Positions 26,809 to 35,532 of a stretch of DNA of 35,666 nt are shown in pieces (the stretch's first letter is position 1; every line of letters begins with the position of its first letter). The notes under the pieces were generated by a model. That model was not told the origin of the DNA and searched no databases. It saw only the letters and a list, made by a program, of their open reading frames with translations. A program made the position numbers and the translations under genes. Location: NCBI GenBank assembly GCA_030688615.1, contig JAUYIZ010000050.1, forward strand, positions 1-35,666, given 5' to 3'. Source of the DNA: Desulfobacterales bacterium (GTDB taxonomy: Bacteria; Desulfobacterota; Desulfobacteria; Desulfobacterales; JAUYIZ01).

Positions 26809-27143
26809 TCTAAAAAATTAGGAGTAATTCAGCGTGTTGTGCAGCACATAACCTGCATTTGTCAACAGTATCTGCCGCCAAAATTTCATTGACGTATATT
26901 TTTTGTATCCTGTAGTTTCGGATGTGTTTGAAAAGTGCATCTTGCCACAGTGCTGGGTCAGGTAAGGTCGAAATCAGGTACAGATTGAGAATTAACTATT
27001 CAATATCATAGACAAGCTAAAACCACAATATGTCTTTGGGAGGTTGTGAGGTTCGGCTACAGATTTCTTGCCGGACTCCAAACATATCCTATTTTTTAGA
27101 CGCATTGTGATATCATTGCCTGATATCGGACGATATCTATCGG

Positions 27144-27389
27144 ATGCTTCAGACTGCATTGATGTTCCGACCAGATGCCGGAAGATTAATTAGGGGAAGT
27201 GGGGGCTTACGGAAGATCCGTTGGAATCTTTCTGGTACAGGTAAAAGAGGTGCTTTACGTGTAATCTACTATTGGAGTCCTCCTGATACGATTTTCATGC
27301 TTTTCCCGTATAGGAAGTCGGAACAAGAAGATTTGACGCCGGATCAGCTCAAAATTCTCCGGCAAATGGTAAAGGAGTTTTTGTTATGA
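27144..27389 (+). CDS. RelE/HigB-type toxin, apparently N-terminally disrupted
   Basis: RMLQTALMFRPDAGRLIRGSGGLRKIRWNLSGTGKRGALRVIYYWSPPDTIFMLFPYRKSEQEDLTPDQLKILRQMVKE. Upstream coding pattern FFRRIVISL lies in a different frame. Confidence 0.8.
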   Translation: MLQTALMFRPDAGRLIRGSGGLRKIRWNLSGTGKRGALRVIYYWSPPDTIFMLFPYRKSEQEDLTPDQLKILRQMVKEFLL

Positions 27390-27679
27390 AAAAAGAACAG
27401 TTTGAAAAGCTTGTCATCAGTATTAAAGAGGCTGGGGATATAAAATCCGGGCTTAGTAAGCCGAGTCGTATGTATGAAATAAAGCCGCCTGATATTAAGA
27501 ATGTACGAGAGAAACTCAATGTCTCTCAGAATGAATTTGCGATCATGATTGGAGTCAGCGTTCGAACTTTACAGAACTGGGAGCAAGGCAGAAGAAAACC
27601 AGAAGGGCCTGCTAATGCATTGTTAAGAATAGCATCAATGAATCCCCAGGCGGTTCTTGATGCCCTACACGTTGAATAG
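27386..27679 (+). CDS. HTH antitoxin (NadS/HigA-like)
   Basis: KNVREKLNVSQNEFAIMIGVSVRTLQNWEQGRRKPEGPANALLRI; overlaps the toxin stop. Confidence 0.88.
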   Translation: MKKEQFEKLVISIKEAGDIKSGLSKPSRMYEIKPPDIKNVREKLNVSQNEFAIMIGVSVRTLQNWEQGRRKPEGPANALLRIASMNPQAVLDALHVE

Positions 27680-27890
27680 GAGCAGCCAATAAACGGATTA
27701 TAACTCGGCTATAATTTCCACCTATAGATCTCCCTTTATTTCTATCATTTTAACTGCCGGGCGACTGTATAAAAATCGGCGGGATTATTAAAGATGGAGC
27801 GGATAGGCCGCTTGACACAAAGCCCTTTTCTTGACATACTTTTCTTTACAAAAAGAAAGTTTCCGTAACTTAGATATCGATTTTGCGAAC

Positions 27891-28178
27891 ATGAAAAATG
27901 TAAAAATCAAATCAATGTTTCGGCCATCTCTTTTCTGGGATGCGGATAAAATCGATACATGGGATCATGCCGATTACATTATCGCTCGAATCCTGGACTA
28001 TGGAGACATGAATGATGTAAAGACGCTCAGAAAAATATATTCCGATGAAAAAATCATCGAAGTCGTCCGTACAAGAAGAGGGTTACTCCCACAAACCGGA
28101 AAATATTGGGCGGTCAAATTCAATATCTCCTTAAATGATGTCTCATGTTTGAAGAAGTATTACCGGAAAATGCTATAA
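27891..28178 (+). CDS. DUF6922-like protein (putative antitoxin of an AbiEii-type toxin)
   Basis: LFWDADKIDTWDHADYIIARILDYGDMNDVKTLRKIYSDEKIIEVVRTRRGLLPQTGKYWAVKF; overlaps the next ORF by 34 nt. Confidence 0.7.
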   Translation: MKNVKIKSMFRPSLFWDADKIDTWDHADYIIARILDYGDMNDVKTLRKIYSDEKIIEVVRTRRGLLPQTGKYWAVKFNISLNDVSCLKKYYRKML

Positions 28179-28564
28179 GTGTCGTCGAATCACTGGGAAC
28201 CCGATTAGAGGAGTTTTATTTGTCCGGTGGGACGGGATTTGCATTGCAATTGGGACACAGAAAATCGAATGATTTCGTTTTCTTTTCACCGAAGCCGTTT
28301 AAAAAGGATTTCATCGATCTTTATGCGGCAGACAAAATGAAATATACCATTGCAGACATCTGCGGCTTTTTTAAACAGCGCTTTAAGGCTTTTGACCTAA
28401 ACGTTTATCACGTATTGAAAAGCCTGGTCTTTTTTGAAGATGCTGAGAAGGAACCTTCTCCGGAGATGCTATTATCAGGCCAAGAATGGAAATGGGATAC
28501 GATTAAGTCCTTTTTTATTGTGAATCTTGAATTGTTTGAGAAAGAATTGACTCAGGAAATTTGA
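28145..28564 (+). pseudogene. AbiEii/AbiGii-type nucleotidyltransferase toxin with internal deletion and altered catalytic motif
   Basis: FYLSGGTGFALQLGHRKSNDFVFFSPKPF joins directly to KKDFIDLYAADKMKYTIADICGFFKQRF. The family has a central domain between these segments and DxD where this has DFV. Confidence 0.75.
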
Positions 28565-28730
28565 TACCCGAAAATTAGGCACTGTTGTTTCCGCACGGCC
28601 GTCTGGGCCAGGTTTCGTCCTGGTTGGGGCAGATACGGCTGGTGCGCTTGGTGAAGGGTATCTGACAATTCTTGGCCCAAGGGAGGATAATAAAAATAAC
28701 TTTATTTTTTGACCGCGGGAAATGTAGACG

Positions 28731-31532
28731 ATGAAAGAAGAATCCGTTCATCACCATAGCCTGCCTGCCGTCAAGATCGCCTTGTTTCGGGCTTTCTTTC
28801 GCGGGCGCGACGACGTCTATCCCCGCCGATTCGAGAGCCGAAAAACCGGCAAGTCCGGCTACCAGCCCGCTTGCGCCAACGAATGGGTGAAAAGCCTGTG
28901 TGATAAACGCTCTGTCAAGTGCACACAGTGCCCGAACTGCCGATTTATTCCCGTCGCGGACGATGCGATCCGCTGGCATCTTTCAGGGCAGGACGACGCA
29001 GGCCACGCTTTCGTCATGGGTGTCTACCCGATGCTCCAGGACGAAAAATGTTTTTTCGTGGCAGCCGATTTCGACAAGAAAAGCTGGCCTGAGGATACCA
29101 AGGCATTTATGGAAACATGCCGCCGGATGAATCTGCCTGCGGCATTGGAGCGGTCCCGTTCCGGAAATGGCGGCCACGTATGGCTTTTTTTCGATGAGGC
29201 TATTCCGGCTGCCTTGGCGCGTAAGCTCATTTCATACATCCTCACCGAGACGATGGAACGCCGTCCGGATATCGGCCTTGATTCCTACGACCGATTTTTC
29301 CCCAGTCAGGACACATTGCCCCAAGGAGGGCTGGGAAGCCTCATCGCGCTGCCGCTGCAGAAGCAGGCGCGAGAGCATGCAAATAGCGTGTTTCTCGATG
29401 AACGCTTCATTCCCCATGCGGACCAGTGGGCATTTCTGGCAACCGTGCGGAAGATTTTCCGCTCCGAGGCGGAACGGATTGTGTGTGAAGCTGAAGCAAA
29501 AGGACGGATCGTGGGAGTCCGTCTTGCCCCCATGAATGAAGACGATCATGCGCCCTGGGCGGCGCCGGCTTCGCGCCGGTGCAAGGAACCTCCGATCAAC
29601 GCACCGCCCAAGAGACTGGAACTCGTTTTCGGAGACCAGGTCTACATCGCCAAAGAGGGGCTTCCTCCGGCTCTTCGTAACCGGCTGCTCCGGCTGGCGG
29701 CCTTTCAGAACCCCCAATTCTACAAGGCGCAGGCCATGCGTCTTTCGACTTACGGCAAGGATAGGATCATCGCCTGCGCCGAGGATTACCCGCAGCACAT
29801 CGGTTTGCCGCGCGGATGTCTGGAGGACGTGCGAAGACTTCTGGCGGAGCTGAAGATCAAGGCCGTGGTCCACGACCAACGTTTTGGGGGCAGACCGCTT
29901 TCGGTCTCGTTTCAAGGGGAATTGCGACCAGAACAGAAGGCTGCTGCCGACGCGATGGCCGCACACGATATTGGGGTCCTATCCGCCACTACGGCATTCG
30001 GAAAAACAGTGGTCGCAGCGTGGTTGATCGCCCAACGAGGGGTCAACACCCTGGTCCTCGTGCATCGCCGGCAGTTACTGCAGCAGTGGGCTGAGCGATT
30101 GTCCATGTTTTTGGGCTTGCCGATCAATGAGATCGGCCGGATCGGTGGCGGCCGGAAAGAGGTGACTGGCGCGCTGGACGTGGCGGTCATCCAAAGCCTG
30201 GTACGCAAAGCCGTAGTCGACGACCGGGTGGGCGACTATGGCCATCTTGTGTTCGATGAATGCCACCATCTGCCTGCCGCAAGCTTTGAGCAGGTCGCCC
30301 GGCGGGCAAAAGCCACGTTTTTTACGGGCCTGTCGGCCACCGTGACGCGCAAGGATGGTCGTCACCCGATCATTTTCATGCAATGCGGTCCGGTGCGGTA
30401 TCGCGTCGATCCTAAGAAACAGGCCCTTGCGCGACCGTTCCGACACAACGTATTTGTACGACCAACCGGCTTTCAGTCCCGGGCAACACCCGGCCCGGAC
30501 GTTCGCAGCCAGTTTCACGACCTATACGACGAGCTGGTCGCCGATGAAGCACGCAACCGGCTCATCTGCAGGGATGTGATTCAAACCGTCCGGGAAGGAC
30601 GTTCGCCGGTTGTCTTAACGGAACGAACCGAGCACCTTGAGCATCTGGCGAAAAAGCTTTCTCCTGATGTGCGCCACCTGATCGTTTTTCGAGGCGGTAT
30701 GGGCAAAAAAACGCTAACTGGCGTTTCCACCCGATTGGCAGGCGTTCCCGAAAATGAAGGCCGGGTGTTGCTGGCTACCGGCCGATGTATTGGAGAAGGT
30801 TTCGACGATGCCCGGCTGGACACCCTGTTTCTTGCTCTGCCGGTGTCGTGGCGCGGGACCATCACCCAGTATGCAGGCCGGCTTCACCGCCTGCACGATC
30901 GCAAGCGCGAGGTTCGCGTATACGACTACGCCGACCTGGACGTACCCATGCTGGCAAGGATGTTCGACCGGCGTTGCAAGGGATATGAGGCGATCGGTTA
31001 TACGGTCCAGTTACCGGCCAGCGCCATACCGGGTTGGCCGGCCGATGTACCGCTTCCCGTCGATCCTTTGTGGAAACAGGACTATACCGCCAGCGTCCGG
31101 CGCTTGATTCGCGATGGTGTAGATAGGCCGCTTGCCACCCTGTTTGTCCATGCGACCCGTTCCGTGTATCCCGGCTCAGAAGGTGTCGAACGCGCCCGAA
31201 GCGCGACCGAGGCGTTCCTGTATCGCCGGTTGGAGTCACTGCCCCAGACAACCGGCAAGTTCCGACTGAATACGGAGTTGCCCATTGCCTTCGACGGCCG
31301 GGGCAAAATGGAGGTCGATCTTCTACATGCCGATGCGCGCGTGGCAATCGAGCTGGATGGCGCGCAGCATCTGGCCGATCCCCAGGCTTACCGTCGCGAC
31401 CGGCGCAAGGATTTATTGCTTCAGGAGAACGGTTATGTCGTCTTGCGGTTTCTTGCCGAAGACGTGGGGACACAGCTCGACGATGTGCTCGACGCAATTG
31501 TGCGCATGCTGGCGAATCGGCAGAGGACGTAA
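28731..31532 (+). CDS. TOTE-type fusion: archaeo-eukaryotic primase, SF2 helicase and DUF559/VSR-like endonuclease domains
   Basis: Primase: CFFVAADFDKK (DxD), SRSGNGGHVWLFFDEA and FFPSQDTLPQGGLGSLIALPLQ, with Cys cluster CDKRSVKCTQCPNC. Helicase: TTAFGKTVVAA, FDECHH, GLSATVTRKDG and QYAGRLHRLH. Nuclease: KMEVDLLHADARVAIELDGAQHLADPQAYRRDRRKDLLLQENGYVVLRF. Confidence 0.88.
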   Translation: MKEESVHHHSLPAVKIALFRAFFRGRDDVYPRRFESRKTGKSGYQPACANEWVKSLCDKRSVKCTQCPNCRFIPVADDAIRWHLSGQDDAGHAFVMGVYPMLQDEKCFFVAADFDKKSWPEDTKAFMETCRRMNLPAALERSRSGNGGHVWLFFDEAIPAALARKLISYILTETMERRPDIGLDSYDRFFPSQDTLPQGGLGSLIALPLQKQAREHANSVFLDERFIPHADQWAFLATVRKIFRSEAERIVCEAEAKGRIVGVRLAPMNEDDHAPWAAPASRRCKEPPINAPPKRLELVFGDQVYIAKEGLPPALRNRLLRLAAFQNPQFYKAQAMRLSTYGKDRIIACAEDYPQHIGLPRGCLEDVRRLLAELKIKAVVHDQRFGGRPLSVSFQGELRPEQKAAADAMAAHDIGVLSATTAFGKTVVAAWLIAQRGVNTLVLVHRRQLLQQWAERLSMFLGLPINEIGRIGGGRKEVTGALDVAVIQSLVRKAVVDDRVGDYGHLVFDECHHLPAASFEQVARRAKATFFTGLSATVTRKDGRHPIIFMQCGPVRYRVDPKKQALARPFRHNVFVRPTGFQSRATPGPDVRSQFHDLYDELVADEARNRLICRDVIQTVREGRSPVVLTERTEHLEHLAKKLSPDVRHLIVFRGGMGKKTLTGVSTRLAGVPENEGRVLLATGRCIGEGFDDARLDTLFLALPVSWRGTITQYAGRLHRLHDRKREVRVYDYADLDVPMLARMFDRRCKGYEAIGYTVQLPASAIPGWPADVPLPVDPLWKQDYTASVRRLIRDGVDRPLATLFVHATRSVYPGSEGVERARSATEAFLYRRLESLPQTTGKFRLNTELPIAFDGRGKMEVDLLHADARVAIELDGAQHLADPQAYRRDRRKDLLLQENGYVVLRFLAEDVGTQLDDVLDAIVRMLANRQRT

Positions 31533-31798: not shown

Positions 31799-31957
31799 AT
31801 GCCGATTGAAAGCACACATTATGGTCAATTGTATGAAATCAGGGGCGTATTAACGGGGCCAAATCATAAGAAGCTTTCTGTCTGTACCGTTTGGATAACA
31901 GAAAATGCAACCGGTTTAACGAAATTCATCACCATGTACCCGGATAAGAGGGGGTGA
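31799..31957 (+). pseudogene. DUF6883-like C-terminal fragment
   Basis: MPIESTHYGQLYEIRGVLTGPNHKKLSVCTVWITENATGLTKFITMYPDKRG*. A plausible N-terminal piece (NGVLPEKLLNVVLLRQIIN) lies upstream in another frame. Confidence 0.55.
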
Positions 31958-31962
31958 TAAAC

Positions 31963-32205
31963 ATGAAATATCAATTATTTGAAGAAGTTGTTTTAAAAAA
32001 AGAATTTCCAGATCAAAGACTGAAGGAGGGTGATATTGCGACTGTCGTGGAATATCATCCGGTTTCTGATGGGGAGGATGGATATTCTTTGGAAGTATTT
32101 AATGCTGTCGGCGATACCATAGCCGTCATAACAGTACCTGAATCTTCTATTGAAACGTTAACAAAAGATGGAATTTTCACTGTGCGTTTGCTGGCAACTG
32201 GATAA
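31963..32205 (+). CDS. DUF4926-like small protein
   Basis: MKYQLFEEVVLKKEFPDQRLKEGDIATVVEYHPVSDGEDGYSLEVFNAVGDTIAVITVPESSIETL; adjacent to the DUF6883-like fragment. Confidence 0.75.
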   Translation: MKYQLFEEVVLKKEFPDQRLKEGDIATVVEYHPVSDGEDGYSLEVFNAVGDTIAVITVPESSIETLTKDGIFTVRLLATG

Positions 32206-32801: not shown

Positions 32802-33056
32802 ATGGTGCCGGAAAAATTTTTCGACGAAGCCGATTGGGACAAAATAGAGAAATTACATGAAAATGTTAGTCTGAAGAAAATTGTCAGACAATCCTTTAAT
32901 AACGAGACCTTCAAGGATTTCGTTATATTTGATAATCGTGGCGTTCTCGTATCGGAATCGCTTCGGAATTTTATAATTAGCTTGCTTTATTCAATCACCT
33001 CTTGTTGCAGGCGCAATGCTTTGGGATGCAAGCCCGGAAATTATCAAAACCCTTGA
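32802..33056 (+). CDS. Uncharacterized ORF (MVPEKFFDEADWDKIEKLHENVSLKK...), probably truncated at its 3' end
   Basis: ATG preceded by agagag. Coding-like to about SLRNFII, where the adjacent polyprenyl-synthase frame takes over. Confidence 0.4.
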   Translation: MVPEKFFDEADWDKIEKLHENVSLKKIVRQSFNNETFKDFVIFDNRGVLVSESLRNFIISLLYSITSCCRRNALGCKPGNYQNP

Positions 33057-33453
33057 TAGGACGGGATATTATTTGGGAATAGCTTATCAGGTCCGGGATG
33101 ATGTGATAGATGTCATAGGCGACTCAGAGTTCACAGGAAAGCCTATTGGTGTAGATGTTCGGCGACGTAAAATGCGTCTCCCGTTGATTCAGGCGCTTCA
33201 GGAATTAAGTGGAAGAAAAAGGCGGAAGCTTGAAGACCTATTACGAGCTACAAGTCTATCCGACGAAGCCCTTAGTGAGGCGCTCTGCTTAATAAAGGAA
33301 AGCGGTTCCATTGAGTATTGCATTTCCAAGACAAAGGAATACTGTGAGCGTGCCGCCGATGCCATGAACATTCTTTCAGAAGACATCGCATCGCTGAAGG
33401 TCCACCTCTATGTTGTTGCAAACTGGATTGCCTCTTTTGAGGATGGGACATAG
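32977..33453 (+). pseudogene. Polyprenyl diphosphate synthase, C-terminal part only
   Basis: SPLVAGAMLWDASPEIIKTLDRTGYYLGIAYQVRDDVIDVIGDSEFTGKPIGVDVRRRKMRLPLIQAL has the second Asp-rich motif; first Asp-rich motif and N-terminus absent. Confidence 0.75.
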
Positions 33454-33791: not shown

Positions 33792-34916
33792 ATGCGTTAT
33801 ATCACGCCTTATGTCCTTGCGGATTTAAAGCAAAAAATGGTCTTTGTGGGCGGTCCTCGGCAAGTCGGAAAAACAACGCTGGCCAAGGCCGTTCTTTCAG
33901 AGAACTTTCCGGCAGGCCGCTACCTGAACTGGGATTATGACGAGGACCGCCAGGATATCCTGCGCAAAAGATGGAGCACTGAAAATAACCTGCTGGTGTT
34001 CGACGAGCTGCATAAATTCCCTCGCTGGAAAGGTTGGATTAAGGGGATTTACGATGTATCCCACGAAAAGCACACTTTTCTGATAACCGGTTCGGCCCGT
34101 CTTGACATTTACCGGCGAGGCGGCGATTCCTTAATGGGGCGATATCATTACTGGCGTCTGCATCCCTTTACTCTTGACGAAATTCCCGATGGCATTTCGC
34201 CGGAAGAGGCATTTAAGAGACTTATGACCGTCGGCGGATTCCCGGAACCATTTCTGGATGGGGATGAACGCCACGCGCGCCGGTGGCGGCGGGAACGGTT
34301 TGACCGGGTACTTCGTGAAGACGTGCGGGACCTGGAACAAATACGTAATATTCAGTTGCTCGGCATGTTTCTGGATATGCTTCGGTATCGCGTCGGCGGG
34401 CTGATCACCGTATCCAACCTGGCATCTGATTTACAAATTTCTCCCAAAACCGCCAAGGCATGGCTTGAGGTTCTGGAAAGAATGTATCTTGTCTTTATTG
34501 TTTGGCCCTATACAAAATCTCTGCCAAGAGCGGTGTTAAAGCCTCCCAAAGTATATTTTTTTGATAATGGCGATGTGTTGGCAGATGAGGGCGCGCGCTT
34601 TGAAAATCTTGTGGCGGCATCACTTTTAAAACGGCTGCATTTTCTTGAGGATCGAGACGGGTATCGATATGAGCTGCGTTACATTCGGGATAAGGAAGGA
34701 CGGGAGGTTGATTTTGCCGTCATAAAGGAAGGACGGCTGGAAGAGTTGATCGAAGCAAAATATTCTGATGACAATATTTCGAAACATCTTCTTTATTATG
34801 CAAAGCGCCTAAAACCGGAAAAAGCCACACAGATCGTGGCCAATATAAGAAGGCCCTATGATAAGGGGCAAATTAGGGTGGTTGATCCGATTACGTATTT
34901 TCGGGAACCGATATGA
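33792..34916 (+). CDS. AAA ATPase with DUF4143 C-terminal domain (AAA_14 family)
   Basis: MVFVGGPRQVGKTTLAKAVL, LLVFDELHKFPRWKGWIKGIYD, FLITGSARLDIYRRGGDSLMGRY and C-terminal YELRYIRDKEGREVDFAVIKEGRLEELIEAKYSD. Confidence 0.92.
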   Translation: MRYITPYVLADLKQKMVFVGGPRQVGKTTLAKAVLSENFPAGRYLNWDYDEDRQDILRKRWSTENNLLVFDELHKFPRWKGWIKGIYDVSHEKHTFLITGSARLDIYRRGGDSLMGRYHYWRLHPFTLDEIPDGISPEEAFKRLMTVGGFPEPFLDGDERHARRWRRERFDRVLREDVRDLEQIRNIQLLGMFLDMLRYRVGGLITVSNLASDLQISPKTAKAWLEVLERMYLVFIVWPYTKSLPRAVLKPPKVYFFDNGDVLADEGARFENLVAASLLKRLHFLEDRDGYRYELRYIRDKEGREVDFAVIKEGRLEELIEAKYSDDNISKHLLYYAKRLKPEKATQIVANIRRPYDKGQIRVVDPITYFREPI

Positions 34917-35221
34917 TTAATCAACTCATACTTAACGGGATAATCGCAGGAAGTGTCTATACCCTGGTTGCTGTTGGCTTTGCGGTTATCTACCGAACGG
35001 TAAGGTTTTTTCACTTTGCGCACGGCGTTGTGTTTACCGCAGGGGCTTATTTTACATATTTATTCAAGGCTTGGATGGGCTGGCCGGTTATCGCTGCAAT
35101 TCCAATATCAATCGGTTTATGCGCCGTGCTCGGCGTTATCATCGATAGCTTCGTCTACCGTCCTCTCAGGCATAAAGGTGCATCTTCTCTGATACTGCTT
35201 TTAGCATCCCTATATTTGTAA
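34913..35221 (+). pseudogene. Branched-chain amino acid ABC permease LivH, N-terminal part
   Basis: LNGIIAGSVYTLVAVGFAVIYRTVRFFHFAHGVVFTAGAYFTYL...KGASSLILLLASLYL*; ends after ~102 aa. Confidence 0.85.
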
Positions 35222-35532
35222 TCGGTGCGGTTATGGCTTCGGTAGCGGGGGCCGTATATGCTTATTATATCAGTTTCATCGACCCCACCAGCTTCACGGT
35301 AATGGAATCGATTTTTATTATATCCATCGTTATTATTGGCGGGGCCGGCAACATCTGGGGGTCTGTTCTGGCGGCGGCCGTGCTAGTTGTTCTGCCGGAG
35401 GCCTTACGGTTTTTGGGAATGCCGAGCGCTATCGCCGCCAATATGAGGCAAATTATTTACGGTGCCTTGTTGGTCATTTGCATGCTCTTTCGTTCCCAGG
35501 GTTTTATCGGTGAATATTCCTTTAAGAAATAA
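35206..35532 (+). pseudogene. Branched-chain amino acid ABC permease LivM, C-terminal part
   Basis: IPIFVIGAVMASVAGAVYAYYISFIDPTSFTVMESIFIISIVIIGGAGNIWGSVLAAAVLVVLPEALRFLGMPSAIAANMRQIIYGALLVICMLFRSQGFIGEY, in a different frame from LivH. Confidence 0.85.

Follow-up and report, generated by a model that had tools for sequence, protein, structure and literature searches.

The window (the whole stretch of DNA analysed, 35,666 nucleotides of a Desulfobacterales contig) contains a complete open reading frame with an ATG start at 28731..31532 on the forward (+) strand, exactly the single 933-residue ORF given in a preliminary description of this DNA. The encoded protein carries, in one chain, a Prim-Pol domain, an XPB-like helicase and a DUF559 nuclease. 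The primase-helicase-nuclease fusion proposed earlier was borne out by Pfam matches to AEP-TOTE, ResIII and DUF559, with all domains above the curated cut-offs. Because full-length homologues 63-76% identical to the protein occur in many phyla and differ mostly at codon position 3, this is not a chance ORF. An AlphaFold2 model has a mean pLDDT of 77.9 and a pTM of 0.61, and is poor at a Cys cluster (residues 35-61) and in the linker 263-284.

The gene lies among partly decayed toxin-antitoxin modules. Upstream are a RelE-type toxin remnant without its N-terminus (27111-27389), an apparently intact NadS-type antitoxin (27386-27679), an apparently intact DUF6922 gene (27831-28178) and a nucleotidyltransferase-like ORF of the AbiEii/MNT toxin type (28145-28564, +). 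The last of these has no Pfam match and, as its sequence reads, is probably an internally deleted nucleotidyltransferase toxin. Downstream lie an apparently intact DUF4926 gene (31954-32205), a polyprenyl synthetase reduced to its C-terminal part (33016-33453), an apparently intact AAA_14/DUF4143 ATPase gene and a permease for branched-chain amino acids that is broken in two (34913-35532). One piece of the permease matches the N-terminal and the other the C-terminal part of a single Pfam domain, of which about 90 positions are missing through an internal deletion or frameshift. The preliminary description had the neighbours on both sides truncated, which is correct for the four decayed genes but not for the NadS-type, DUF6922, DUF4926 and AAA_14/DUF4143 genes. 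The ORF is separated from the decayed toxin gene by a GC-rich, apparently non-coding patch (28571-28690), for which a structured RNA was rejected on a fold z-score of -0.9, a single copy in the genome and no Rfam match. A tyrosine recombinase (169-1467; Phage_integrase, E 2.7e-19) adjoins tRNA-Glu at the contig's left end, and the two are possibly an integrated element that runs off the contig, unrelated to the ORF at 28731-31532.

By profile and motifs the N-terminal domain (residues 15-248; 28773..29474) is an AEP/Prim-Pol of the AEP-TOTE family (PF22548) and a predicted polymerase. The AEP-TOTE profile matches these residues with an E of 3e-93 (312 bits, cut-off 27), and phmmer relates them to the solved CRISPR-associated Prim-Pol of Marinitoga (2e-9). 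Foldseek did find the primase fold that had been read into the N-terminus, in the CAPP Prim-Pol 7nqf/7nqd (target TM-score 0.77-0.80, E about 3e-11), and CAPP Prim-Pols are the nearest solved AEPs to this domain. The Prim-Pol motifs, defined as hhhDhD, sxH and hD/E (PMC10345425), are all intact: D113-x-D115 (motif I; 29067..29075), G147-G148-H149 (motif II, sxH; 29169..29177) and Y186-D187 (motif III, hD; 29286..29291). Motif I, H149 and both residues of motif III are invariant in 50 homologues. A Cys/His cluster formed by C48, C57, C64, C67 and H83 (28872..28979) is invariant or near-invariant among homologues and is a possible zinc site, in a stretch for most of which the model pLDDT is about 50 or below.

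The central part (residues 397-760; 29919..31010) is an SF2 helicase whose Pfam ResIII/DEAD match covers residues about 397-540 (ResIII E 3.8e-18). Its best sequence match is archaeal XPB (PDB XPBII, E 9e-18), the NCBIfam XPB profile matches with an E of 4e-18, and the top Foldseek matches are to the XPB of XPB-Bax1 (E about 2e-16), with RadD and UvsW also among the closest folds. The target TM-score against XPB is only about 0.4-0.64 because the domain orientations differ. Since the NCBIfam XPB equivalog cut-off is missed (65 vs 610 bits), we call the domain XPB-like rather than XPB. Helicase motifs I, II and VI and a RED-like motif are all present. Walker A reads TAFGKT (29991..30008; T421, F423, G424, K425 and T426 invariant in 50 homologues), the DEAH-type motif II reads DECHH (30255..30269; D509-E510 invariant) and motif VI reads QYAGRLHR (30867..30890; Q713, R717 and H719-R720 invariant). 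R540-K541-D542 (30348..30356) stands where XPB has its RED motif, in place of R-E-D, and aligns to R-D-D of XPBII and R-E-D of AfXPB; R540 and D542 are likewise invariant. The linker that precedes the helicase (residues about 295-395, AFQNPxFY...PRGC; 29613..29915) is conserved across the classes described below, the phmmer match to XPBII begins inside it at residue 366, and it probably corresponds to an XPB DRD-like domain.

The C-terminus (residues 824-927; 31200..31511) is a PD-(D/E)xK nuclease domain of the DUF559 type, matched by Pfam (E 3.9e-11, 43 bits, cut-off 20.6) and by a profile of the DUF559 structure 3hrl (2.9e-8). Foldseek also ranks 3hrl first (TMt 0.83, probability 1.00, E 0.012), ahead of I-Bth0305I, Vsr and TnsA. 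The acidic and basic residues E861, D863, E874, D876 and K893, together with D890 and R891, are invariant in the 50 homologues.

Across the three domains, every catalytic position that is invariant in the 50 aligned homologues is present in the 933-residue protein and none is substituted, in agreement with the earlier statement that all motifs are intact. Compared with its three nearest homologues (75-76% identical), the gene shows differences of 0.18 at first, 0.11-0.12 at second and 0.47-0.51 at third codon positions. Third-position differences dominate even between distant homologues, which indicates purifying selection on the family, and the view that the gene is selectively maintained therefore holds at the family level. 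In-frame stops, single or double, occur in four homologues (loci L007, L014, L021 and L032). They fall at differing residues and use all three stop codons, which rules out recoding and points to decay or sequence error. The gene has a GC content of 0.59, against 0.36-0.48 in the flanking genes, and GC falls at its stop codon; this high GC accounts for the many overlapping long frames, as had been suggested. The contrast is mostly one with an AT-rich island: over the first 19 kb of the contig, long genes have a GC3 of about 0.60, and that of the gene (0.66) is only slightly higher.

A scan of contigs, with one genome per species, returned at least 577 relatives, the best 80 of which are 63-76% identical across nearly their full length. 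These 80 come from Planctomycetota, Acidobacteriota, Verrucomicrobiota, Lentisphaerota, Kiritimatiellota, Thermodesulfobacteriota, Pseudomonadota and candidate phyla, and the DUF559 form occurs in only 2 of 297 genomes of the host's own phylum. Among the 80 loci no shared neighbour was found (the commonest cluster is present in 6) and no common flanking DNA beyond a few pairs. The absence of a conserved neighbour, the unrelated flanks and the GC contrast indicate that the gene travels as single-gene cargo. The survey also shows no conserved operon partner, which agrees with the one-gene acquisition proposed in the preliminary description; of its phrase "recently acquired", horizontal transfer of a single gene stands on the unrelated flanks, and "recently" has to be dropped as undatable. 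A one-gene transposon with conserved ends was ruled out by the lack of common end sequences in the flanks of the 80 homologues, and around the ORF itself the only repeats are of 8-10 bp, by eye no more than chance. A phage origin was also rejected: matches to phage records are partial, covering the helicase in every match listed, and the same holds for viral structures. The nearest genes of the homologues include AbiEii (5 of 149), AAA_14 (4), HipA_C (2) and ParE (2). In a control set of genes drawn at random from the same contigs, at distances above 4.5 kb, AbiEii reached at most 1 of 149 and metabolic families dominated; the AbiEii enrichment is weak, suggestive but not strong. The commonest neighbour cluster is an uncharacterised protein of about 390 residues beginning MSEYQYYEFQAIDRPLT, found at 6 of the 80 loci (L003:4278-5474, L009, L016, L020, L068 and L073).

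The primase-helicase core (residues about 13-760) comes in three forms. Class a (about 815 residues) has an N-terminal coiled-coil-like stretch and nothing beyond the helicase; it is carried by plasmids, rhizobial and other, and by many genomes of the host's phylum. Class b (about 970 residues) has the N-terminal stretch and a C-terminal PLD nuclease. Class c, to which the gene at 28731-31532 belongs, has DUF559 and mostly no room for the N-terminal stretch: in 55 of 76 cases the open frame upstream is under 40 codons long. A quick maximum-likelihood tree of 74 core sequences unites all 30 class c members (SH-aLRT 100); a second group holds all 11 class b members and also L112, a protein that ends just past the helicase in an off-consensus tail. 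As the root was not inferred, gain and loss of the nuclease are indistinguishable in this tree. In the PLD-type sister clade (L106, L107, L110, L111 and others) the core is 43-46% identical to ours and the nuclease sits at the same C-terminal place, but it is of the PLD/HKD type rather than PD-(D/E)xK and the N-terminal coiled coil is kept. Two unrelated nuclease folds at one position suggest that nuclease action is important for function, with DNA cutting as a likely role.

No separate nuclease gene was obvious near class a copies when their neighbourhoods were read by eye. On conjugative rhizobial plasmids, class a genes lie near ParB, DUF1738/zincin metallopeptidase, DUF736 and recombinase genes, and the only annotation of the plasmid relatives is "DEAD/DEAH box helicase". 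On the Sphingobium yanoikuyae plasmid pTB1 (L103:664-8256) a class a gene comes fourth in a tniA-like/tniB/tniQ transposition operon, as an overlapping gene. At L114:4794-9772 a class a copy is interrupted by an inserted 388-residue ORF that resembles a transposase by eye, and an AbiEii-like gene, also by eye, lies directly upstream of the split copy.

TOTE systems, as outlined in PMC12458937 (citing Aravind, Iyer et al. 2022), are operons of TPR, OB, TBP and effector genes. Our protein has the AEP domain family in common with them, but on this outline TOTE systems have TBP, TPR and OB partners, whereas the gene at 28731-31532 stands alone. A TBP gene is absent from the host genome and from 38 homologue genomes, while archaeal controls gave matches, and no TPR or OB/CSD gene adjoins the ORF among the window neighbours. 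TPR and OB genes were also missing from the 25 commonest neighbour families of the 80 homologues, a weaker test than that for TBP. The TBP searches rule out a TOTE operon so described. The earlier label "TOTE-type conflict gene" consequently fits the Pfam domain name but not the system, for want of TBP and of a recurrent TPR or OB neighbour. Association with CRISPR was ruled out as well, since an exact-repeat scan found no CRISPR-like array in the window or in the homologue loci examined and no cas match appeared among the window neighbours scanned.

The non-CRISPR relatives of CAPP are mostly Prim-Pol and helicase proteins typical of mobile elements (PMC8211822). Stand-alone AEP-TOTE or "CAPP-helicase"-like proteins likewise join a Prim-Pol to a helicase that follows it in the same chain, and are often carried by mobile DNA; class c differs from them in having no N-terminal coiled coil and in carrying a C-terminal DUF559. 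The protein is a member of a known family, in a clade set apart by DUF559 and the missing coiled coil. Archaeal XPB-Bax1, a helicase-nuclease machine (PMC7293015), likewise couples an XPB helicase fold to a nuclease, but it consists of two proteins, uses another nuclease family, has no Prim-Pol and serves in DNA repair.

We read the protein as a self-contained, horizontally moving DNA-processing enzyme, most probably acting against invading DNA, a reading that we hold with about even confidence. In the mechanism that we envisage, the XPB-like double-strand translocase would load at an opening in the DNA (a replication fork, a transfer or injection intermediate, or a bubble) and enlarge it. The DUF559 nuclease, held behind the helicase in the way that archaeal XPB binds Bax1, would incise the opened DNA, while the N-terminal Prim-Pol could prime or fill on the exposed single strand. 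Such synthesis might either block or divert replication of the invader or supply duplex for more cutting. We infer the order of these events, their target and the defence role. The patchy presence (2 of 297 genomes) without conserved neighbours or flanks is as expected for defence cargo, and we also count for this role the attachment of either PLD or DUF559 to the same core and the frequency of AbiEii neighbours (5 vs at most 1 of 149). Against it, there is no methyltransferase or sensor gene for self/non-self discrimination, Prim-Pol activity has no obvious place in a restriction function, and nuclease-less relatives occur on conjugative plasmids and in one tniA-tniB-tniQ operon, so that the core may serve mobile elements.

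That last observation underlies the chief rival to a defence role, which we consider rather unlikely: the core would make incoming single-stranded DNA of a plasmid or transposon duplex or repair its gaps, DUF559 would trim or resolve intermediates, and the chromosomal copy would be stranded or domesticated cargo. The rhizobial plasmid copies near ParB, DUF1738, DUF736 and recombinase genes, the copy in fourth place of the transposition operon and the mobile-element character of non-CRISPR CAPP-helicase proteins (PMC8211822) speak for such maintenance. However, the DUF559-form genes have no conserved mobile-element neighbours, and a replication factor has no obvious need of a core joined to two different nucleases. 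We regard a host DNA-repair enzyme, resembling archaeal XPB-Bax1 with built-in gap filling by the Prim-Pol, as improbable. The closest folds (XPB of NER complexes, RadD and UvsW) and the R-K-D at the RED-motif position would suit it, but a gene so patchily distributed, passed singly between phyla and set among varied neighbours that include toxin genes is not a core gene. Very improbable indeed is a functionless passenger that is intact in this host only through late arrival, since all motifs are intact and the family is under purifying selection, despite the decayed neighbours and the in-frame stops in four homologues.

Returning to defence against invading DNA, a bolder version, which we offer as speculation, is an immune platform built of modules in a single protein: an XPB-like motor would open foreign DNA, the Prim-Pol would write new strands on it and an exchangeable nuclease (none, PLD or DUF559) would destroy it, a "prime-and-cut" scheme for which we found no described precedent. 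A literature search, covering work other than the primary TOTE papers, found no published assay of the Prim-Pol, XPB-like helicase and DUF559 architecture. The family is common, also in poorly cultured phyla, and the core alone, the core with PLD and the core with DUF559 form a natural matched series for asking what the Prim-Pol adds and whether the nuclease is the effector.

A second AEP-TOTE protein, of 552 residues, is encoded in the host genome on contig C398 (L105:2463-6560), between a TPR-repeat gene and Cas1. As judged by its genes, this locus is a CAPP-type cassette with a CRISPR-associated Prim-Pol. CAPP Prim-Pols are DNA primases and DNA-dependent DNA polymerases (PMC8211822). The protein on C398 has a related Prim-Pol domain but no helicase or nuclease match, and with it beside Cas1 in the same genome, two uses of one enzyme family can be compared in one cell.
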